The position numbers were made by a program, and so were the translations under genes. A stretch of 34,786 nt of DNA from a virus. The stretch covers positions 1 through 34,786 of the IMG/VR virus record IMGVR_UViG_3300027969_000252; one strand, given 5' to 3'. Under the pieces are notes generated by a model, which made no database searches, had not been told where the DNA came from, and was given only the letters and a program-made list of their open reading frames with translations. Positions 23,192 to 34,786 of the stretch are shown here, piece after piece. Each line of letters opens with the position of its first letter. The first letter of the stretch is position 1.

Positions 23192-23717
23192 TACTTAATA
23201 CCTGTTTCATTTCGAGTTCGGTTTTAAACGGCCCTTGATATTCGTATCGTTGTAAGGTAATGAGTTTAGGACAGAAACTTTTGACCCATCCTTTGTCAAA
23301 GCGTATGACATAGTATCCTGCACAGTAAAGGCTTTTACTATCTCCGCTCTTAGTAAAGAGTGGTAGTTTTCTTTTAACATCAAACATTGCGTTATGGGGT
23401 GTGGTCGAAGTTGCATAGCCGTGTACCTCATTTGGTTCTGCATCGTCTGCTTCTTTAATAATTTTTGCAACAAAAAAGTTCTTACCAAACTCTCTAGTTA
23501 GATCAACTTTGGTCTGATAAATTTTAACACCAGCCTCGTTGCTCATAACAAATCGATCATCTTCGTTCTTTCTCAGAGTAGCAAATTTTGCTCCATCTTT
23601 TTCAACGATCCAAAATTTATTTTCAATTATCGGTTTAGCGTGTAGTTCTTCCATAGCTTCCTCCAGACATGTCTTAGTTTTATGTGGACATGTTTCAGTG
23701 TACTGACATATTTTCAT
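23178..23717 (-). CDS. Conserved phage protein with Cys-rich N-terminus
   Basis: This 179-residue protein starts MKICQYTETCPHKTKTCLEEAMEE, where three Cys and a His could form a small metal site. It continues with an alpha/beta region (NKFWIVEKDGAKFATLRKNEDDRF, VDLTREFGKNFFVAKI, CAGYYVIRFDKGWVKSFCPKLITLQRY). The ATG at 23717 is chosen because the Cys-rich segment follows it directly; a longer form starting at 23747 would run further into the exonuclease gene. The chosen start overlaps that gene by 23 bases. The function is unknown, and a DNA-metabolism role is suggested only by position. Confidence 0.68.
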   Translation of the reverse strand: MKICQYTETCPHKTKTCLEEAMEELHAKPIIENKFWIVEKDGAKFATLRKNEDDRFVMSNEAGVKIYQTKVDLTREFGKNFFVAKIIKEADDAEPNEVHGYATSTTPHNAMFDVKRKLPLFTKSGDSKSLYCAGYYVIRFDKGWVKSFCPKLITLQRYEYQGPFKTELEMKQVLSNVSK

Positions 23718-24699
23718 TTGTATACCTTGCATTAAGCGGTTCAGCATAGGCCTGTGCCTGATCAGAAATTTTCTTTAGATCATAAAGTCCACAGAACTTC
23801 ATCAATCGAAGTCCGACTTGTGATACATTTTTGTTTGCTGATGTTGCTGTGGCAATTGTTTCAGCGATAATAGATTTAATCTCATCGGGTTGTGCAGAAA
23901 GATCGATTAGAACACGATTGCGTTCATAGTCTTCTTTAACACGATGTTCTTTGCCTTCGTGGTCAGTCCAACGCTGAAGCATCATATTGTTCCAATTATA
24001 CCCTTGGGTCAATCGATCTGCAAAGGCTTCACGGAGACCAATCTTATTCTTTGTGCCTTTTTCACGTACTCCCGGATATGCAGAGAACACGTTGTCCGAG
24101 GTATCGCCTCGCATACACTTCTCAAAGAGTAACCACTGGGGGTCCGGAATGGCTTTTGGCTCTTGAGTCTTTTTATCAATAACTCTCTTACCTTTTGCAT
24201 CAAAGATACCTTCGTGTGTGATTGTAGTTTCCATTACACCGTTATATTGTTTCACATTTGGAGCAATTAATTGCACAAAATCTGTATCGGTCGAGATGAT
24301 AACATGATTGTCGTTAGGATGACTCTGTATCCAGCCAGCAATAAGATCATCAGCTTCTAGCTGAGGATGTTGCATAACTGTGCAATTAGTTTTATCTGTG
24401 ATAAACTCTTTGAATGTGTCAAAGGCTTCCCAAAAGACTTTTTCTTCTTCTGCTTCTTTCTCTGTATGTGCGGCACGAGCATCACTGCGATTACGCTTGT
24501 AAGGAGCATAGTGATCCTTGCGCCAGCTACGACCTTCTAAACAGAAGACTACGTGGGCACCGTTAAAGTCTTGCCAAGCCTTTTTAATACTGTTAAGTGT
24601 GATGTGAAAAGCCATGCCAAGTTTAATGTCAGCATCTCCATTGATTACATGCCTAGCACGGAAAAACGTATTAGCAGTATCAACTAAAATATAGGTCAT
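23695..24699 (-). CDS. rnh: T4 RNase H-type 5'-3' exonuclease (flap nuclease family)
   Basis: This 334-residue protein has the acidic residues of the FEN/5'-nuclease family: Asp7 in ILVDTAN, the FCLEGRSWRKDHYAPYKRNR segment, LEADDLI (Glu115, Asp117, Asp118), STDTDF (Asp138, Asp140) and RGDTSDN (Asp199, Asp202), followed by the helix-hairpin-helix type AYPGV. In T4 this enzyme removes RNA primers and flaps from lagging-strand fragments with gp32 and the clamp. Position 55 is Glu where many relatives have Asp. Its start overlaps the upstream stop (ATGA). The length is slightly greater than T4 RNase H. Confidence 0.88.
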   Translation of the reverse strand: MTYILVDTANTFFRARHVINGDADIKLGMAFHITLNSIKKAWQDFNGAHVVFCLEGRSWRKDHYAPYKRNRSDARAAHTEKEAEEEKVFWEAFDTFKEFITDKTNCTVMQHPQLEADDLIAGWIQSHPNDNHVIISTDTDFVQLIAPNVKQYNGVMETTITHEGIFDAKGKRVIDKKTQEPKAIPDPQWLLFEKCMRGDTSDNVFSAYPGVREKGTKNKIGLREAFADRLTQGYNWNNMMLQRWTDHEGKEHRVKEDYERNRVLIDLSAQPDEIKSIIAETIATATSANKNVSQVGLRLMKFCGLYDLKKISDQAQAYAEPLNARYTNENMSVH

Positions 24700-25136
24700 T
24701 TGTTATTCTTTTTAACAGTTTTAATATCAATAACGCCGGTGTTAACAGCGCCTCCATAATCTCCGTCGATTACTACGTTAGCACATAGTTCACGGAACCA
24801 GCGATCTACAATTTCTTCGTCTAAATCACCGTCGAAACCATAGCCCTCTTGCTTTAATTTTAACACAAAGTCGTCATTCCAGTCAAGCTCAAAAAAGCCG
24901 TTGCGGATATTATCTTTGTTAATGTGAGTGTTAAGTACACCTACCCAGGGTTCTTTTAGTTTGGTTGCACGATCTTTTGGACTTAGTTTAGCAGTTTCTT
25001 CTGCGTCTTTAGCACGTTCTGCGGCAGTGGTAGCATCCTCTGCAACTTTTTTAGCAGCTTCGGCTTGTCTAAGACTTTCTTCAGTTTGGCTTCTAAGTTT
25101 ATCAATGCCGAATAACTTTTCTATAAATTTACGCAT
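24696..25136 (-). CDS. Conserved phage protein with N-terminal coiled coil
   Basis: This 146-residue protein begins MRKFIEKLFGIDKLRSQTEESLRQAEAAKKVAEDATTAAERAKDAEE, an Ala/Glu/Lys-rich coiled coil. A conserved-looking domain follows (EPWVGVLNTHIN, GFFELDWNDDFVLKLKQEGYGFDGDLDEEIVDRWFRELCANVV). The domain occurs in aquatic T4-like phages with no assigned role. The start at 25136 shares one base with the QueE stop (TAATG), while the longer form would add four residues. Confidence 0.72.
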   Translation of the reverse strand: MRKFIEKLFGIDKLRSQTEESLRQAEAAKKVAEDATTAAERAKDAEETAKLSPKDRATKLKEPWVGVLNTHINKDNIRNGFFELDWNDDFVLKLKQEGYGFDGDLDEEIVDRWFRELCANVVIDGDYGGAVNTGVIDIKTVKKNNK

Positions 25137-25999
25137 TAGGTTCCCCACTCGTTTTTAAACAATGGCACCTGAAGACGATCACTGTATCTTAGTCCGTGCT
25201 TCATAGCAATATCTGCTACTGCTCTGTTATTAAGAGAATATACACTTTCTACACCGCCTACTGGCATTAGAAATATATGTCCTTCAAAATCTGCTTTTCG
25301 AAAAGCAGCAATGGCACATTCTGCATCAGCAAAGTCTTGTTCTGTAGCAATTACAAATTTTAAATATGCATATCCGACGTCTTCGTACTCTCGAACAATG
25401 CTAGGACAAATAGCATCCTCCCACTTCTCTCCGCTACATGGAAGTTTAGCACTTATACTAAATGTTATAGATTCGCACCAAGACTTGTTATCTTTTAATT
25501 TCCAGTTTTCTAGATACTGTTTAAATTCTGGAGTAAGTTTTTGAGTACCATTTGTTTCAAATGTAATCTCTTTTAAACCCTGCATCTTAGGATGATCTAG
25601 TAAGTCTGGATAAGCACGTTGCCAACCTAGCAAAGGCTCCCCACCTGTAATAACCAAGTGTTCATCACGCCATTCGCCATGCGGAAGTATTTCCATAATG
25701 CGTTCTACAATAGCATCAGTAGTTAACATTGGACTTAGATCTTTAAAGCGTGGATCCCAACTAGCATAGCTGTCACAGCCTGTGCTAACAAGTGGCAAAT
25801 CTTTATAATCCTTATAAGGAGTATTGTCGTGAGCAAAAGCGATAGTTTCGACTTCTGTACTCAGTTCTCCCCGCGGCATTCCAAATCCCGCACATTTAAA
25901 GTTACAACCGAATGTACGGAGGAACACACTAGGCACACCCATGTAGCGGCCTTCACCTTGTATGCTGTAGAACAGCTCTGCTATTTTTAATTTACTCAT
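25136..25999 (-). CDS. queE: QueE-like radical SAM 7-carboxy-7-deazaguanine synthase
   Basis: This 287-residue protein has IAELFYSIQGEGRYMGVPSVFLRTFGCNFKC near its start, ITGGEPLL and TFETNGTQ, all typical of QueE, which converts 6-carboxy-tetrahydropterin to 7-carboxy-7-deazaguanine with S-adenosylmethionine and Mg2+. The cluster cysteines are Cys32, Cys36 and Cys75. The third Cys is in CDSYASWD, which matches the C-D-S----WD of bacterial QueE but is displaced by a 38-residue insertion. The pathway is shared with FolE (28208) and the QueD-like protein (30714). The ATG at 25999 is favoured over a GTG at 26014 that overlaps the previous gene. Confidence 0.85.
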   Translation of the reverse strand: MSKLKIAELFYSIQGEGRYMGVPSVFLRTFGCNFKCAGFGMPRGELSTEVETIAFAHDNTPYKDYKDLPLVSTGCDSYASWDPRFKDLSPMLTTDAIVERIMEILPHGEWRDEHLVITGGEPLLGWQRAYPDLLDHPKMQGLKEITFETNGTQKLTPEFKQYLENWKLKDNKSWCESITFSISAKLPCSGEKWEDAICPSIVREYEDVGYAYLKFVIATEQDFADAECAIAAFRKADFEGHIFLMPVGGVESVYSLNNRAVADIAMKHGLRYSDRLQVPLFKNEWGT

Positions 26000-26006
26000 A
26001 TTACTA

Positions 26007-26198
26007 TTATACACTCTTTTTCTCTAAAGACCAAGAACCGTCTCCCCGATCTTGCCATTCCAACGTGTCGCCTTCTTTCCAACCTGCTGCCTCTAGTAGG
26101 TCAGGTGGAAATTGGAGAATGGCATCTCCAGTTTCTGGATCTTCTTCAACGGTCAAGGTCCAGGAGTTGCGATCCTGTCGCTCAGTAACATCTTGCAT
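26007..26198 (-). CDS. AbrB/SpoVT-type small regulator or antitoxin-like protein
   Basis: This 63-residue protein matches the swapped-hairpin AbrB fold: SWTLTVEEDPETGDAILQFPPDLLEAAGWKEGDTLEWQDRGDGSWSLEKK. Such domains bind DNA as dimers in transition-state regulators and MazE-type antitoxins. No toxin gene is adjacent, so it may regulate phage or host genes. The first 11 residues are extra to the usual domain and overlap the previous gene by 46 bases. An internal start is possible. Confidence 0.75.
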   Translation of the reverse strand: MQDVTERQDRNSWTLTVEEDPETGDAILQFPPDLLEAAGWKEGDTLEWQDRGDGSWSLEKKSV

Positions 26199-26684: not shown

Positions 26685-26950
26685 TAGTTTTTATCTTGTG
26701 TATTTGTAAACTGATTAACAGTTTTATAAGTATGAAGCTCTGCCTGATATTGCTCTTCAGTTAAGCCGTGCCAACCAATACACTTACCTGTTGGGCTACG
26801 ACCACAGCCGCATTGTCCAATTTTACTTTCATCTTCTTTAACTCTTACTTGCATAGTTTTTTCCTTCTTACCAAATATTTTTTCAAAACTATTAGCGAAT
26901 TCATCTTGACTTACACTAAATGGTCTTGGTTTAGATCCTTTGCCACTCAT
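26684..26950 (-). CDS. Small protein with CDGSH-like metal motif
   Basis: This 88-residue protein begins MSGKGSKPRPFSVSQDEFANSFEKIFGKK. It then has QCGCGRSPTGKCIGWH, in which Cys47, Cys49, Cys57 and His61 recall the C-X-C-X2-S-X3-P-X-C-D-G-S-H motif of CDGSH iron-sulfur proteins, although the second spacer is one residue shorter and Asp is Ile. It may bind a [2Fe-2S] cluster or zinc. The start at 26950 overlaps the upstream stop (ATGA). Functional partners are unknown. Confidence 0.65.
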   Translation of the reverse strand: MSGKGSKPRPFSVSQDEFANSFEKIFGKKEKTMQVRVKEDESKIGQCGCGRSPTGKCIGWHGLTEEQYQAELHTYKTVNQFTNTQDKN

Positions 26951-27441
26951 TTCCACCAATCCTCGTAGGGAAATTCGACCCATACATCTTCTTCTGCCTT
27001 ATTTACTTCCGTGCCCCAATAGTTCATTCCAACGCTACATTGGCTAGATAGATTGTCAACAACTACAGCAAATCTAACATTGCCACTCCAAACGTGTTCC
27101 CAACGTTCATCATAGGGAAAGCAACCACTAGGCCAGTCCTGCATAATCCAATTCAATGTAGTTCCTTGATCGTTGATGTCGTCAACTACAAGAATATTTT
27201 TACCATCGAATGCATCTTCGGCCATCCCTAGGTCACTGACAGTTTCGATGTTATCTCGAAGACTGACCTGTAGTGGTTTCATCGGAATATTAAAATAGTG
27301 ACTGATCATTACGGCAGGCAGCAGCCCGCCTCGACTGATGCCTACAATATAATCTGGTCGCCAATTGTCTTTTGAAATTTGTCTGCAAATTTCTCTGACT
27401 AAACTTTTAAATTCTGTGTAATCAATTATGCGCTTGTTCAT
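26947..27441 (-). CDS. Phosphoribosyltransferase-family protein
   Basis: This 164-residue protein has the PRPP-binding loop ILVVDDINDQGTT (residues 83-95) and an upstream YIVGISRGGLLPAVMISHYF, the two landmarks of type I purine phosphoribosyltransferases such as hypoxanthine or xanthine enzymes. It would join a purine base to PRPP. A link to the 7-deazaguanine genes nearby is possible (salvage of a modified base) but not shown. It starts MNKRIIDYTEF and overlaps the upstream cupin gene by 20 bases. Confidence 0.8.
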   Translation of the reverse strand: MNKRIIDYTEFKSLVREICRQISKDNWRPDYIVGISRGGLLPAVMISHYFNIPMKPLQVSLRDNIETVSDLGMAEDAFDGKNILVVDDINDQGTTLNWIMQDWPSGCFPYDERWEHVWSGNVRFAVVVDNLSSQCSVGMNYWGTEVNKAEEDVWVEFPYEDWWK

Positions 27442-28101: not shown

Positions 28102-28211
28102 AATGTTACCTCTTGATATTTAGATGCAGGATATCGTTCTTGCAACCATTCTAACAAACCGGGTTCCCAAGGAAGCTGTATGTCACCAGTTCGATTTGTA
28201 ATTATTCTCAT
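28098..28211 (-). CDS. Small gene of 37 codons
   Basis: A short frame between folE and the 71-residue gene encodes MRIITNRTGDIQLPWEPG and then LLEWLQERYPASKYQEVTL. Its ATG overlaps the folE stop by ATGA (28208-28211) and its TGA overlaps the next start by ATGA (28098-28101). It has no stop in between and no other frame explains the gap. The function is unknown; it may be a partner for FolE or a neighbour. Confidence 0.6.
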   Translation of the reverse strand: MRIITNRTGDIQLPWEPGLLEWLQERYPASKYQEVTL

Positions 28212-28954
28212 CGTGGTGCAAACTCTTGTTGTAGTTTAATGTTGTCAAAGAATTCTTTCTTTGTATGAGGATCGTCTTTGAATGTGCCTTTAAGCACAGT
28301 TGTCTGTGTGAGACTAGAGTGTGCCATAATGCCGCGATTCTCACAGCATCCATGCACCGCCTGCACATAGACTGCTACATTTTCAGAATCAGTGGCTTTA
28401 CTAATTTCTCTAGCAATGTCATTACATAGTTCTTCTTGTAATGTACCACGACGAGCACACCACTGAGCAATACGAGTGTACTTGCTAAGACCAATGAGTT
28501 TGTTGGCTGCAATGATGCCAATATAAGCAACGCCAGATACAGGCTGGTGATGATGACTACACATACTTCGTAGCTCACTTCTAACCACAAGCATACCTTT
28601 GTATCGGTCTGCTGAATCATTTGGGAAAGCTGTTGCGTCTGGTGCTGGATCATATCTACCTGCCATTACTTCGTTAAAATACATTTTAGCTAATCGTTTA
28701 GCTGTGCCTTTTGAGTTAGGATCGTTCTCGCGATCAATTAATAAACAATCTAAAACTTTTTCAAATGCTTCTGTTGTTTCTTTAATTAGCTCTTCTTTCA
28801 TTTTGTCATCAATGTACTCACTGATGTTATCTCCAGCCCAGAATCTTTTACCATTGCGTTTCATTACAAAACCCAAATAGTTATGTGCTGTGCCCACTTG
28901 ATAACCACTGTCGCCGTACATAGCGTCAAGTGCTGTTTCTTTTTTATCTGTCAT
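28208..28954 (-). CDS. folE: GTP cyclohydrolase I
   Basis: This 248-residue protein has the FolE core: KGTAKRLAKMYFNEVMAGRY, the zinc site SMCSHHHQP (Cys132, His135), IGLSKYTRIAQWCARRGTLQEELCNDIA and AVHGCCENRGI with Cys203. It converts GTP to dihydroneopterin triphosphate, the first step shared by folate and 7-deazaguanine synthesis. The catalytic set is complete, with a long N-terminal extension of about 50 residues. It starts at the stop of the 129-residue gene (one base shared). Together with QueE and the QueD-like protein it points to phage production of 7-deazaguanine precursors. Confidence 0.93.
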   Translation of the reverse strand: MTDKKETALDAMYGDSGYQVGTAHNYLGFVMKRNGKRFWAGDNISEYIDDKMKEELIKETTEAFEKVLDCLLIDRENDPNSKGTAKRLAKMYFNEVMAGRYDPAPDATAFPNDSADRYKGMLVVRSELRSMCSHHHQPVSGVAYIGIIAANKLIGLSKYTRIAQWCARRGTLQEELCNDIAREISKATDSENVAVYVQAVHGCCENRGIMAHSSLTQTTVLKGTFKDDPHTKKEFFDNIKLQQEFAPR

Positions 28955-29381: not shown

Positions 29382-30455
29382 TTATTTTAACATCTCTAAT
29401 AGTTTGTTACAACTAAAAAAGTTTTCTTTTAATTCGTATACCTGTTTATTTAGGCTAGGTAAGAACTTTTCGTAATTTTCTATGTACTGCATGATCTTAT
29501 TACAGATTTCCGGCCTATGTGCTTCGTATGCAGTATAGCTTTCAGTCCATTCGCTAGGATATTTAAAAGTATCAAAAGCCATTTCGCTGTAGCTAAGTCT
29601 ATCCGGTACCATAGGAATAGCATCAACAACCGCGCCTTCATACCAACTAATGCCCAAGGTTTCTTGCAAGTTAGCACTGAACACTAACTTGGCTTCACCT
29701 AGCAGGTTATGATATTCGTTCTTGGTCAGCTGTTGATCCTGACAAACAACAAATTCGTATTGGGGAAGATATTGTTTTAAGTCTCTAAAAATCTCAACTT
29801 GTTTCTCAGGAGCAATACGATGTGGAAATAATATAAGATCACGCTTGGGCATATTTTTATACATCAGCAATGTATCAGTCATATACTCCATAGGCCAACC
29901 ACTGCGCACAATCTTACCTTCATTGACAAACTCCTGCACAGTATCTTCTAGTGTTTCATCTAAAAGATTTTTACAAAATAAATCAATGTGAAATTGTGAA
30001 GCAAAATAATTGTGATTAATAGCGGCAAAGAAACTTTTCTCAGCGTGTCTAACCCAAGGAGCATCTCCTATCAATCGTCCTAGGAAATCTTGAGGATCGT
30101 AACTACCAGCATGCCACAAAGCGTGAATCTTTACAGGAATCTGTAAAAGCTCACTCATGTACTTTAGGTTAATGATGCCCGGGTGCCAAGCATCAGTAAA
30201 GATAAAATGATCGCCAGCCTTGACGGATCCTGCACAAAAAAGTCTTCCAAGCTGTTCAACTTGGTTTGCCTTATAGATATTAGTGCCCCCAAAGTTAAGA
30301 AATGCACCAGGAGTAGTGGCGCTAGGAATATCATTAGGACCCGATATAATGTGAACTTCATGGCCTGCCTTTCGTAAGAGTGCAGGTACATAGGACTTCC
30401 ACTGTCCCGTGTACCTGGTCTCGACTGCTTCTAGATCAACGAGAAAAACGTTCAT
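29382..30455 (-). CDS. GT4-type glycosyltransferase in the DNA-metabolism block
   Basis: This 357-residue GT-B-fold protein has an N-terminal MNVFLVDLEAVETRYTGQWKSYVPALLRKAGHEVHIISGP, a middle HALWHAGSYD, and the C-terminal nucleotide-sugar half: LILFPHRIAPEKQ followed by ANLQETLGISWYEGAVVDAIPMVP with the EX7E motif of GT4 enzymes. Donor and acceptor are unknown. It lies apart from the glycan operon, among DNA modification-type genes, so modified bases of phage DNA are a possible target, as for T4 glucosyltransferases. A surface target is equally possible. Confidence 0.75.
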   Translation of the reverse strand: MNVFLVDLEAVETRYTGQWKSYVPALLRKAGHEVHIISGPNDIPSATTPGAFLNFGGTNIYKANQVEQLGRLFCAGSVKAGDHFIFTDAWHPGIINLKYMSELLQIPVKIHALWHAGSYDPQDFLGRLIGDAPWVRHAEKSFFAAINHNYFASQFHIDLFCKNLLDETLEDTVQEFVNEGKIVRSGWPMEYMTDTLLMYKNMPKRDLILFPHRIAPEKQVEIFRDLKQYLPQYEFVVCQDQQLTKNEYHNLLGEAKLVFSANLQETLGISWYEGAVVDAIPMVPDRLSYSEMAFDTFKYPSEWTESYTAYEAHRPEICNKIMQYIENYEKFLPSLNKQVYELKENFFSCNKLLEMLK

Positions 30456-30699
30456 TGTTGTTATATCTCGGTTTGTTACCTTGATAAGGTTTACGCTCGC
30501 CTCGATCTACCCAAGGTCTACGTGGACGTTGACTATCAAGGAAGGCCTTGTAGTTAACGTTAGCACGATCATAAAGATGTGCAGGGTTGAAATCGCATAA
30601 CTCCATACGACAAAAATCGTTGTATGCCTCTAGGTCGTCAAAGACCTTGTTAACTTCGGGCTTCATTGTAAGATACTTCTTAAGCCATTCTTGAGCCAT
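30436..30699 (-). CDS. Small basic phage protein, 87 residues
   Basis: The protein begins MAQEWLKKYLTMKPEVNKVFDDLEAYNDFCRMELCDFNPAHLYDRANVNYKAF and then has a tail rich in Arg, Pro, Asn and Tyr that looks disordered and could bind nucleic acid. AAGGA precedes the ATG. Its end overlaps the glycosyltransferase start by 20 bases. Such small proteins are common in aquatic T4-like phages. The function is unknown. Confidence 0.7.
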   Translation of the reverse strand: MAQEWLKKYLTMKPEVNKVFDDLEAYNDFCRMELCDFNPAHLYDRANVNYKAFLDSQRPRRPWVDRGERKPYQGNKPRYNNNERFSR

Positions 30700-30713: not shown

Positions 30714-31103
30714 TTAATACTTGATAAACGAACCATTTTCTCCGTCTTCGGAGACCTCAATCCAAATCTCACGACCTGGATACTTTGTAGAGATAGCGTC
30801 AAACAAATCGCCTGACATCATCTCACAACTCTTATAATCTAAACTTATTGTAGCATCTTTGTAAAGATTTAGCAACCATCGTTTGAACTGAATAAACTCA
30901 ATATCTCTATCATCGTGCGTAACACCAATCCAAACTTTAAAGTGGAAGATGTGACGATGCGGATAGCCTAAAAAACTTACATCGTACTCATCACCTGTAG
31001 CAAGGTTTGAGTCTGTAAGTGCGGCCGGATATTTGTGCATACCTTCTTTCTGGAAGGTGACCCAAATCATTTTATTTGGACGGATGTCTTGTTTAATTAT
31101 CAT
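30714..31103 (-). CDS. QueD-like (6-pyruvoyl-tetrahydropterin synthase fold) protein with altered active site
   Basis: This 129-residue protein resembles QueD/PTPS T-fold enzymes: a His after the first strand (His23), YPHRHIFHFKVWI with His49 and His51, DIEFIQFKRWL matching the ID/VDF--LK segment, then SCEMMSGDLFDAI and IEVSED in place of PTSE--A and V-KET. The three zinc-ligand histidines are kept, but the usual catalytic Cys before the HGH motif and the Asp-His pair are not seen. It may be a divergent QueD making 6-carboxy-tetrahydropterin, or a binding protein. It overlaps the nuclease gene by 11 bases. Confidence 0.55.
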   Translation of the reverse strand: MIIKQDIRPNKMIWVTFQKEGMHKYPAALTDSNLATGDEYDVSFLGYPHRHIFHFKVWIGVTHDDRDIEFIQFKRWLLNLYKDATISLDYKSCEMMSGDLFDAISTKYPGREIWIEVSEDGENGSFIKY

Positions 31104-31677
31104 ATTGAAAAATGTTTTGAAAGGTTGATGCTGTCATTGCTAAAAGTTTTTCCATTTGTCCGTCAGCTAGTCTAAAATCTAACTCAGGACGATCTTTTTT
31201 AGTTTTTTCAAAATATCCCCAGTAACCTTCATATGGTGTGTATGACAGATGCGGATTCTTTTTAAGAAGTGATCTTCCGTGCTCATATGCTGATTCGATT
31301 AACTCTAGTATTTGAGGTTGATCAAAATCACATAAGTCAACAGCAATTATAACATCTAAATCATTAGTTGTAAATCTTAATTGTTTGCGGATTTTTAAAT
31401 ATATCAACGATTGTTTGAATGGAGTGTCTATAATAGTTTCAGGACGCAGGGTAGCTACTGTTTGAGCACTAGTAGCTGTGCCTTTGCGAGCTTTAACTTC
31501 CCAACCAACTTCCGGAATGTCGCAACCATAGCCACGATTTATTTTAATGCCTACTTTAGTTTCGAGCAGATCTTCGCAGGCTCTTCCTGCAAACCCGTTT
31601 ATATTACTAGGTAACTGATGTCCTAAAAGATGATGTCTAATAATGTTTAGAACTAATGTTTCTGTTGAAGTAATCAT
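31093..31677 (-). CDS. MutH/Sau3AI-like PD-(D/E)XK nuclease
   Basis: In this 194-residue protein the segment from Gly28 to Arg64 reads FAGRACEDLLE, then GCDIPEVGWEVKAR. Glu39, Asp53, Glu60 and Lys62 have exactly the spacing of MutH Glu56, Asp70, Glu77 and Lys79 (14, 7 and 2 residues). The Gly before the first Glu and the downstream SLIYLKIRKQL also fit. MutH nicks hemimethylated GATC and Sau3AI cuts GATC. The phage specificity is unknown. It shares ATGA with its upstream neighbour and overlaps the QueD-like gene. Confidence 0.7.
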   Translation of the reverse strand: MITSTETLVLNIIRHHLLGHQLPSNINGFAGRACEDLLETKVGIKINRGYGCDIPEVGWEVKARKGTATSAQTVATLRPETIIDTPFKQSLIYLKIRKQLRFTTNDLDVIIAVDLCDFDQPQILELIESAYEHGRSLLKKNPHLSYTPYEGYWGYFEKTKKDRPELDFRLADGQMEKLLAMTASTFQNIFQYDN

Positions 31678-32066
31678 CTTAAACTCTCCATAGTAATAAT
31701 TTTTGCCAATTCTTCTCCAAGCTCTTTGTCGTCAGTGACCACATGTAGGCTGTGTTTATGATCGTCCTTTTGACGATCGTACTTAGTTGTTTCAACAATA
31801 GTTCCACCACTGGCACTATAGACATTCAATCTAAATCCCTGTGACTGAATGTTTGGACCGTCACTATCGACGCTGATAACATTACCATAATCGTGTTCGT
31901 CGGTGTCATCCATTAGCCATTTGCGAATTCTTTGTTTAAATGTTAATTTCATAGTTCTTTCTTCTACATATCCCACCGGCCGGACCTTTGACGAAGATTT
32001 AGTCATTGATCGTTGCAATCGATGAATAGACCTTGCAGTTGAGGCATATTGCCCAATATTACTCAT
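31674..32066 (-). CDS. Conserved small phage protein with 38-residue extension
   Basis: From Met39 the sequence MKLTFKQRIRKWLMDD, then GFRLNVYSASGGTIVETTKYDRQKD and LHVVTDDKELGEELAKIITMESLR matches a compact protein widespread in aquatic T4-like phages. Its function is unassigned. The residues before it are Ser/Arg-rich and look unstructured. The longer start at 32066 is given because it overlaps the upstream stop (ATGA), and otherwise about 110 bases would be empty. A start at 31952 remains possible. Confidence 0.65.
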   Translation of the reverse strand: MSNIGQYASTARSIHRLQRSMTKSSSKVRPVGYVEERTMKLTFKQRIRKWLMDDTDEHDYGNVISVDSDGPNIQSQGFRLNVYSASGGTIVETTKYDRQKDDHKHSLHVVTDDKELGEELAKIITMESLR

Positions 32067-32596
32067 TTGATGATCTCATCCTTGCCATATTGATCCCAAC
32101 TAGTAAACTTATTTCTATCTAGTAGGTCATGGAGGTTATGACACCACACTCCAGGATTAGTTGCTTTAAAATCTTTGTCGTCTATCTTTATTGTAGCATT
32201 ATATCCCAGTTGTTGTAAATAGGGCAGCTTAACCGAAATCTGTGGAATAAACTGACGCTTCTCTACAAGACCGCTTTCTAACAAGCCTTCTACTTGCGCT
32301 ACATCTAAATCTAGTGTACACCAAAATTCATCGTCTGCATCTAAGCAAACATAGATCATATCTTCCCATAGACGCCATTGTTCTGCATCGTTAACTTCTA
32401 ATTTAGGAAAACTTTGATTAGCACCAAAGTAGATATGAGTACAGTTGTGTTGACGAGCAAGTTCTATGATTACATAGGCATCATTTACACCTGTTACAAA
32501 CAGAGTTTTCATTCCGTATGCAGGAGTCTTTTCGATCTCAATACCTGTAAAGAATGTAATGCTGTCTGCAACACCTGATTCGTAATTTCTTTTCAT
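32063..32596 (-). CDS. Conserved phage protein, 177 residues
   Basis: The protein begins MKRNYESGVADSITFFTGIEIEKTPAYGMKTLFVTGVNDAYVIIELA and continues with HIYFGANQSFPKL, MIYVCLDADDEFWCTLDLDVAQVEGLLESGL and NATIKIDDKDFKATNPGVWCH. It looks like an alpha/beta domain. I do not know its function. It sits beside the MutH-like and QueD-like genes, coupled by ATGA overlaps at both ends, so a role in the same process is plausible. Confidence 0.7.
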   Translation of the reverse strand: MKRNYESGVADSITFFTGIEIEKTPAYGMKTLFVTGVNDAYVIIELARQHNCTHIYFGANQSFPKLEVNDAEQWRLWEDMIYVCLDADDEFWCTLDLDVAQVEGLLESGLVEKRQFIPQISVKLPYLQQLGYNATIKIDDKDFKATNPGVWCHNLHDLLDRNKFTSWDQYGKDEIIK

Positions 32597-33959: not shown

Positions 33960-34128
33960 TTGCTTGCTTTCGTTTAAGTATAGCAATTTCGTCTTTTAAA
34001 TGCAACCGTTGCTTCTTCAATTCTTCAAGTTTTAGGTCTTCAAAAAGTCCATTCTTTTCCAGCGTGTCTACTTTTTTATCTAAGGCACGATGTGCTTCTT
34101 CTAAATGTTTAATTCTCATCTCATACAT
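33925..34128 (-). CDS. YdcH/DUF465-like small coiled-coil protein
   Basis: The 67-residue protein MYEMRIKHLEEAHRALDKKV, then LEELKKQRLHLKDEIAILKRK, fits the YdcH/DUF465 pattern of a short helical hairpin. The role of these proteins is not established. A perfect AGGAGG (34135-34140 on this strand) lies 6 bases before the ATG at 34128, which decides that start. The upstream coding end overlaps its first codons. Confidence 0.72.
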   Translation of the reverse strand: MYEMRIKHLEEAHRALDKKVDTLEKNGLFEDLKLEELKKQRLHLKDEIAILKRKQANEKVYSNTDAN

Positions 34129-34786
34129 TGTTTGCCTCCTGTTCTAAGAACTCTGCTTCTAATTCTTCTAAAACATTTTCATCTAGTTCAGGCATAGCAC
34201 TTACAGTGCTTACACTCTTGTCTAACACAACATCGTCATGATCAAACAAGTTACTGAATGTGTTGTTGGCATTGCCACCACGTAGACGCATACCCATCAT
34301 GTTGTTTAACATTGGTCGAGCATCTTCGATCATTTGCATAGGAGTTTCGGATTTAAAAAGTTCTTCAACAAAACGATCAAAGTAAAGAATATTGCGTGGA
34401 ACCCACTCTGAATATTCATCGCTCTTGTCGTTCTCTTTGACTTTCTTCCATAGTCTCCAGTCTGGCTGTGCCTTGTGGCGTTCAATGTCCATTAATGTGT
34501 TAGCACGTTGAACAGCAACAATATGACAGTAGGTATTATGTGCCATCATTAAAGCATAACCAAAGCTATCCCAAGCAGTCTTGCCTTCTTTACCTATCTT
34601 GTTTAACATTCCTGGCTTGTACCAGCAGATGTCTCCAACCGTTAATCTGCGTCCAATTTCACTTTCGAAAGGGAATGGGATGTTAAAAGCCTGGCTAAGG
34701 GCTTTGTTGTCTGGGGCTTTATCCATGATAACTGACCAGCGTTTATTGGTATGCTGGGCGTTTGTATAGACGAGCCCGTGTGCTGT
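34121..34786 (-). CDS. Conserved phage protein, N-terminus outside the window
   Basis: The frame stays open to the right edge (TAHGLVYTNAQHTNKRWSVI before the internal Met at 34726), so the gene probably starts beyond the window. The visible part has MDKAPDNKALSQAFNIPFPFESEIGRRLTVGDICWYKPGMLNK, WDSFGYALMMAHNTYCHIVAVQRANTL, WVPRNILYFDRFVEELFKSETPMQMI and an acidic tail (LDENVLEELEAEFLEQEANN). Its function is unknown to me. It is coupled to the YdcH-like gene through an 8-base overlap. Confidence 0.65.
   Translation of the reverse strand, partial: TAHGLVYTNAQHTNKRWSVIMDKAPDNKALSQAFNIPFPFESEIGRRLTVGDICWYKPGMLNKIGKEGKTAWDSFGYALMMAHNTYCHIVAVQRANTLMDIERHKAQPDWRLWKKVKENDKSDEYSEWVPRNILYFDRFVEELFKSETPMQMIEDARPMLNNMMGMRLRGGNANNTFSNLFDHDDVVLDKSVSTVSAMPELDENVLEELEAEFLEQEANNV

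Follow-up and report, generated by a model that had tools for sequence, protein, structure and literature searches.

A predicted MutH-fold nuclease with an exclusive place in a phage 7-deazaguanine cassette

The window analysed here, a whole IMG/VR record of 34,786 bases and a fragment of a tailed phage, encodes a 194-aa protein that, judged by its modelled fold, appears to be a previously undescribed DNA-cutting enzyme belonging to a family of large aquatic phages. Its gene, its predicted fold, its catalytic residues, its membership of a 7-deazaguanine cassette and its occurrence only together with that cassette were all obtained by computation. Collectively, the MutH fold, the conservation of the catalytic residues, purifying selection, the cassette context and the exclusive place of the gene suggest that the nuclease is directed against unmodified DNA and that the phage's own DNA is shielded by modification, a reading to which we give about an even chance. 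The MutH fold, the setting among DNA-modification genes and the exclusive place hold; the argument from catalytic spacing, with which the original prediction had supported the MutH assignment, fails, and GATC as the target is unsupported.

The predicted open reading frame was recovered at the position originally given for it, on the minus strand and 194 aa long (Table 1). It overlaps the preceding gene, which encodes a 130-aa protein, at ATGA and shares 11 bases with the downstream QueD-like ORF. With overlaps on both sides, the nuclease ORF therefore looks translationally coupled to both neighbours. Pairwise dN/dS values among the nuclease homologues were 0.09-0.14, and the ORF is therefore a real, conserved functional gene under purifying selection. 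Searches with the nuclease sequence returned nothing usable from Pfam, PHROGs, NCBIfam, PADLOC, PDB sequences, GenBank phages or GTDB genomes. Homologues were instead sought in IMG/VR with short conserved peptides, a search that distant relatives escape. These scans yielded 16 contigs with close-to-moderate relatives (40-80% identity) and 15 contigs with a second subfamily (~23% identity), which together with the window make 32 nuclease-bearing contigs.

An AlphaFold2 model of the nuclease built from 12 relatives had a mean pLDDT of 89.5 and a pTM of 0.84. When this model was compared with the PDB using Foldseek, MutH came first (2aoq, 3.8e-6; 2aor; 2azo, TM-score 0.71), followed by Sau3AI (4pxg, 2.3e-4; 7xm0), and the next nuclease was BcnI at 1.4e-2. 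Structure prediction against MutH and Sau3AI had been suggested originally as a check of the MutH-like assignment, and these two enzymes were the top PDB matches. In a comparison by hhalign, the nuclease family profile aligned with a six-sequence MutH/Sau3AI alignment over 119 columns (P=1.3e-4). Significance was reached only with family profiles; with the E. coli MutH sequence on its own, the alignment was not significant. The profile of the MutH/Sau3AI family, PF02976, did not match the nuclease. The modelled fold and the profile alignment support a MutH-type fold for the nuclease, and the assignment stands on these grounds.

The original prediction had rested on Glu39, Asp53, Glu60 and Lys62 reproducing the MutH spacing of 14-7-2. 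Residues 39, 53, 60 and 62 are indeed E, D, E and K, and the pattern E-x13-D-x6-E-x-K occurs once in the ORFs of the window; at least one occurrence was found in 22% of ORF shuffles. By hhalign, D53, E60, K62, S90 and K95 were paired with MutH D70, E77, K79, S111 and K116, and it was E35, not E39, that was paired with MutH E56. Among 24 homologues from the two subfamilies, D53 and K62 were kept in all, and positions 35 (E/D) and 60 were acidic in all. Position 39 was E in only 11 of the 24 and M, V, T, L or another residue elsewhere, and Glu39 was rejected as a catalytic residue because of this variability, seen with the second subfamily, and the hhalign pairing. Position 35 falls in a G-x3-E/D motif, comparable to G52-x3-E56 of MutH. 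Since E35 pairs with MutH E56 and position 35 is always acidic, the homologous spacing is, on conservation and alignment, 18-7-2 (E35-D53-E60-K62), and the supposedly exact spacing of 14-7-2 is a coincidence. The predicted active site thus comprises E35, D53, E60 and K62, with S90 and K95 as the likely equivalents of MutH S111 and K116.

The genes surrounding the nuclease belong to a cassette whose order is found again, with some variation, in many viral contigs: polymerase, clamp, DpdA-like gene, 177-aa gene, the nuclease where present, QueD-like gene, small gene, glycosyltransferase-like gene, FolE, phosphoribosyltransferase, QueE and exonuclease. The FolE and QueE genes named in the original prediction are both real, as their profile matches indicate (Table 1). 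For the overlapping QueD-like gene, the overlap was found as described, and the QueD identity is weak by sequence: an HxH motif is collinear with that of E. coli QueD, and the similarity is not significant. The QueD assignment is nevertheless plausible from the motif and the place of the gene.

Table 1. Features of the nuclease locus and the surrounding cassette in the window, listed from the record end.
Feature	Coordinates	Strand	Evidence
DpdA/TGT-like transglycosylase, divergent (read as), C-terminal part cut by record end	34121..34786	-	63% identical to C-terminus of L028:6837-8495
Conserved 177-aa protein (w32063), upstream border of nuclease slot	32063..32596	-	Synteny; empty junction with QueD
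130-aa accessory protein of slot	31674..32066	-	Slot occupant in many loci
Predicted MutH-fold PD-(D/E)XK nuclease, 194 aa	31093..31677	-	AlphaFold2 + Foldseek, hhalign, conservation in 24 homologues, dN/dS ~0.1
QueD-like protein (phrog_17812, annotated unknown function)	30714..31103	-	PHROG match; homologues in cassette phages
87-aa protein, conserved in cassette	30436..30699	-	Synteny
Glycosyltransferase-like cassette protein	29382..30455	-	45% identical to Paride homologue
FolE, GTP cyclohydrolase I	28208..28954	-	PF01227 2.3e-39; phrog_2197
Phosphoribosyltransferase	26947..27441	-	PF00156 1.9e-13
QueE, 7-carboxy-7-deazaguanine synthase-like radical SAM protein	25136..26014	-	phrog_2076 6.7e-49; TIGR03365 2.2e-16
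5'-3' exonuclease, conserved at cassette end	23695..24699	-	PF02739 1.9e-19; phrog_107 3.2e-41

DpdA is the class of enzymes that inserts 7-deazaguanines into DNA (PMC6884629). Full-length relatives of the protein encoded at the window end, L028:6837-8495 among them, carry DSGG[FY]Q, a QG motif, a GG motif and SFDCxSPF, collinear with the motifs of E. coli TGT (P=0.0014). In a low-confidence model (pLDDT 50), TGT structures made up the top 12 fold matches, which were counted only together with the motif and synteny evidence. The neighbours of a DpdA-like homologue in Vibrio phage 2.275.O are annotated as 7-cyano-7-deazaguanine reductase, COG1738 (YhhQ-like) transporter, queuosine biosynthesis protein, which is a QueC match, and FolE. 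Based on the TGT motifs, the TGT fold matches and this gene context, the gene cut at the window end is therefore read as a divergent DpdA. The DpdA-like profile gave no usable match to PDB sequences, Pfam or PHROGs, and PADLOC also does not recognise the protein. The family is found at more than 500 IMG/VR loci and also in Pseudomonas jumbo phages of the PA5oct/Paride type, Sinorhizobium phage Phosso and Vibrio phage 2.275.O. The link between nuclease and guanine modification is stronger than was originally claimed, given the DpdA/TGT-like gene at the window end and the cassette place of the nuclease in 32 contigs.

Exchange of guanine in the phage genome is the probable function of the cassette. 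QueC, which is needed for preQ0, was found neither in the window nor in the complete Paride genome nor in most large contigs, with weak partial matches in three. The modified base could therefore be 7-carboxy-7-deazaguanine or one of its derivatives, perhaps a glycosylated one; alternatively, QueC of the host may be used. The glycosyltransferase-like protein (at L038:10617-11678 in another locus) always accompanies the cassette, including that of Paride, whose homologue weakly matches PF00534 (9.7e-4) and phrog_4356 (9.3e-4). A sugar on the DNA base would be in keeping with the constant presence of this protein.

We propose the following role for the nuclease. Synthesis of a 7-deazaguanine base would fall to FolE, the QueD-like protein and QueE, and its exchange for guanine in the phage DNA to the DpdA-like transglycosylase. 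The nuclease, as an accessory part of the cassette, would be a metal-dependent PD-(D/E)XK DNA endonuclease that cuts or nicks DNA with unmodified guanines, such as the host chromosome, plasmids and competing phages, and modified phage DNA would be shielded from it. T4 endonucleases II and IV likewise attack unmodified DNA. We infer the cleavage, the target and the protection by modification from the fold and the genomic setting. In a broader and more tentative form, which we judge somewhat short of an even chance, the two components would form a self/non-self system: a MutH-fold nuclease that tells 7-deazaguanine DNA from unmodified DNA, paired with the DpdA-like enzyme much as in restriction-modification but with base exchange replacing methylation, and aimed at the host and at competitors. 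The two diverged subfamilies of the nuclease, possibly joined by HNH nucleases, would replace one another in one slot. Among the papers searched, none connected a MutH-type nuclease of phages with 7-deazaguanine.

The placement of the nuclease gene is constant. In all 32 nuclease-bearing contigs, one of which ends inside the nuclease so that its downstream side is unseen, the gene is bordered by the 177-aa gene, sometimes together with the 130-aa gene, on one side and by the QueD-like gene on the other. The 130-aa gene stands between the nuclease and QueD in L027, L028 and L148, and an endonuclease III-like gene stands between the nuclease and the QueD-like gene in L036. The product of the latter (L036:10563-11207) combines HhH-GPD and iron-sulphur features and matches PF00730 (4e-23). 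No copy of the nuclease outside this slot was seen among the loci examined. In a sample of 69 loci anchored on DpdA, the nuclease was present in 5 and the cassette lacked it in 64; because the sample comprises the best matches to the DpdA query, some of them from related contigs, 5/69 is a rough frequency. The cassette is thus often found without the nuclease, and the nuclease was not seen without the cassette among the nuclease-bearing contigs. Such a one-sided dependence would be expected of a nuclease that endangers unmodified DNA and relies on the modification, with the modification not relying on it. Against the proposed shielding of modified DNA, the fixed position could stem from common descent or from the way the gene inserts and not from function, QueC is missing, HNH nucleases occur in the same slot and most cassette phages do without the nuclease.

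The slot itself raises the strongest rival, a homing-like selfish nuclease that cuts nuclease-less phages where the 177-aa and QueD-like genes meet, or close by, and is then copied into the break, the modification genes being merely its address. In many loci the slot is empty and the two bordering genes directly adjoin or overlap. The empty junctions are of the ATGA type, compared with an insert of 581 bases in an occupied locus, and the junction DNA is variable. Such a clean insertion of a single gene between the start and stop codons of neighbours that overlap elsewhere would suit homing, as would the patchy presence of the nuclease in the sample. Four of the 69 loci have an HNH nuclease in the slot instead (L075:11363-11782, L092, L093 and L094), and HNH nucleases are often homing enzymes. 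In addition, the nucleases of L016 and L017 are 86% identical and their flanking proteins only 46% and 41%, which indicates that the nuclease gene reaches the slot on its own, without the adjacent genes; this fits homing as well as the proposed accessory role. In contrast, flanking proteins that are ~40-50% identical between some occupied loci are poor material for one long recognition site, and a compact MutH/Sau3AI-type domain without an added specificity domain suits a short site. The slot HNH family is also found at other sites in related loci, whereas the nuclease is not, and the nuclease gene is, as in an operon, coupled to the genes on either side. We therefore consider homing unlikely but a serious alternative.

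A replication or repair nickase is a lesser possibility, one we regard as quite improbable. Because the modified base is inserted after replication, the new strand would briefly be unmodified, and hemi-modified DNA could be nicked to direct mismatch repair or recombination to that strand. MutH, the nearest fold, acts on hemi-modified DNA with Dam methylation, and genes for a polymerase, a clamp and an exonuclease lie nearby. However, no MutS was found in ten nuclease-bearing contigs, which are fragments and whose hosts could supply MutS, the C-terminal MutH segment has no counterpart in the nuclease, and most cassette phages lack the nuclease altogether.

The original prediction considered GATC as the target and noted that this site is not depleted, with at least ten sites in the first 3.1 kb. 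The count proved right: there are 11 sites in that stretch, and 167 in the window compared with 145 expected from trinucleotides, a slight over-representation. The mean observed/expected ratio was 1.17 in nuclease-bearing loci, and GATC was depleted neither in relatives that carry the nuclease nor in those that lack it. Avoidance of GATC or other palindromes, considered as a sign of specificity, gave no signal common to both nuclease groups: no 4-bp palindrome was depleted in both relative to nuclease-less loci. In the window, CGCG, CATG and ACGT were clearly under-represented (observed/expected 0.33, 0.55 and 0.60), a shortage that may stem from host restriction or from composition.

The residues of the nuclease do not favour GATC. 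E91 and K186 are invariant across the MutH/Sau3AI set, and we take them, together with the C-terminal GFYLKK segment of MutH, to be the GATC-reading residues of these enzymes. In the nuclease, S70 aligns with E91 by hhalign; K186 lies outside the hhalign alignment, and by eye FRLAD stands against IRPKA before the last helix; the GFYLKK segment has no counterpart. Because these elements lack counterparts, GATC specificity is, at the level of sequence, unsupported so far, and the target is probably not simply GATC. A strict GATC-specific endonuclease in the MutH/Sau3AI sense, with modified guanine guarding the phage's GATC sites, would agree with both nearest folds cutting GATC and with the over-representation of the site, which would make self-protection a requirement. 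The counts are, however, compatible with a simple absence of selection, and together with the replaced residues they make this reading very unlikely in our view. In ten nuclease-bearing contigs, no Dam-like (D12) methyltransferase that could protect GATC was found. Least probable is a modification-dependent nuclease aimed at rival phages with other 7-deazaguanine bases, or processing the phage's own modified DNA: this would explain the exclusive place in a 7-deazaguanine cassette, but the DNA of the phage itself would be at risk unless the enzyme discriminates between modified bases, and no modified-base reader domain was seen in the 194-aa single-domain protein.

If the proposed action against unmodified DNA is true, the T4 paradigm, in which modified phage DNA is combined with nucleases against unmodified DNA, would come to include modification of guanine and enzymes of the MutH fold, and it would account for the repeated placement of a nuclease gene inside a 7-deazaguanine cassette. 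Nucleases possibly blocked by modified guanine could then serve as probes for hidden DNA modifications. The DpdA-like family escapes profile libraries despite its many viral loci, and the DNA chemistry of jumbo phages of the PA5oct/Paride type becomes directly testable.

Compared with known systems, the nuclease resembles MutH of E. coli and H. influenzae (PF02976) in its predicted fold, the acid of the GxxxE helix, D-x6-E-x-K and S-x4-K. It differs in its E-to-D spacing (18 compared with 14 in MutH), in having no PF02976 match and no counterparts of the presumed GATC-reading elements, and in being phage-borne with no mutS nearby. With the N-terminal MutH-like domain of Sau3AI it shares the fold, the catalytic core and the presumed cutting of unprotected DNA. 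In contrast to Sau3AI, which has two domains, it is one domain of 194 aa, the GATC determinants are absent, and no cognate methyltransferase was found in the search of the D12 family. The pathways of phage 9g and Vibrio phage nt-1 (PMC6884629) likewise unite FolE, QueE, a QueD-like gene and a DpdA/TGT-like gene in one phage. The cassette described here differs from these pathways (PMC6884629) in a DpdA that is missed by Pfam, PHROGs and PADLOC, in the lack of QueC in the complete Paride genome, and in its glycosyltransferase-like gene and nuclease slot. The Wroclawvirus jumbo phages PA5oct and Paride share the polymerase, clamp, DpdA-like protein (43%), glycosyltransferase-like protein (45%), QueD-like protein (51%), QueE and exonuclease; in the Pseudomonas jumbo phage Paride, the closest cultured phage with the cassette, FolE lies elsewhere in the genome and the nuclease family was not detected by profile anywhere in it. 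Synechococcus phage S-CAM7 was rejected as an example of the same system, since it has no match to the nuclease family profile or PF02976 and no FolE. Other viral proteins with MutH-like predicted folds include A0A7D5JWA5 of S-CAM7 (BFVD, E 2.3e-7) and A0A8F8X6W8 (3.7e-7). T4 endonucleases II and IV have other folds, and T4 modifies cytosine rather than guanine; the likeness would lie in the principle of a nuclease active on unmodified DNA that spares the modified DNA of its own phage.
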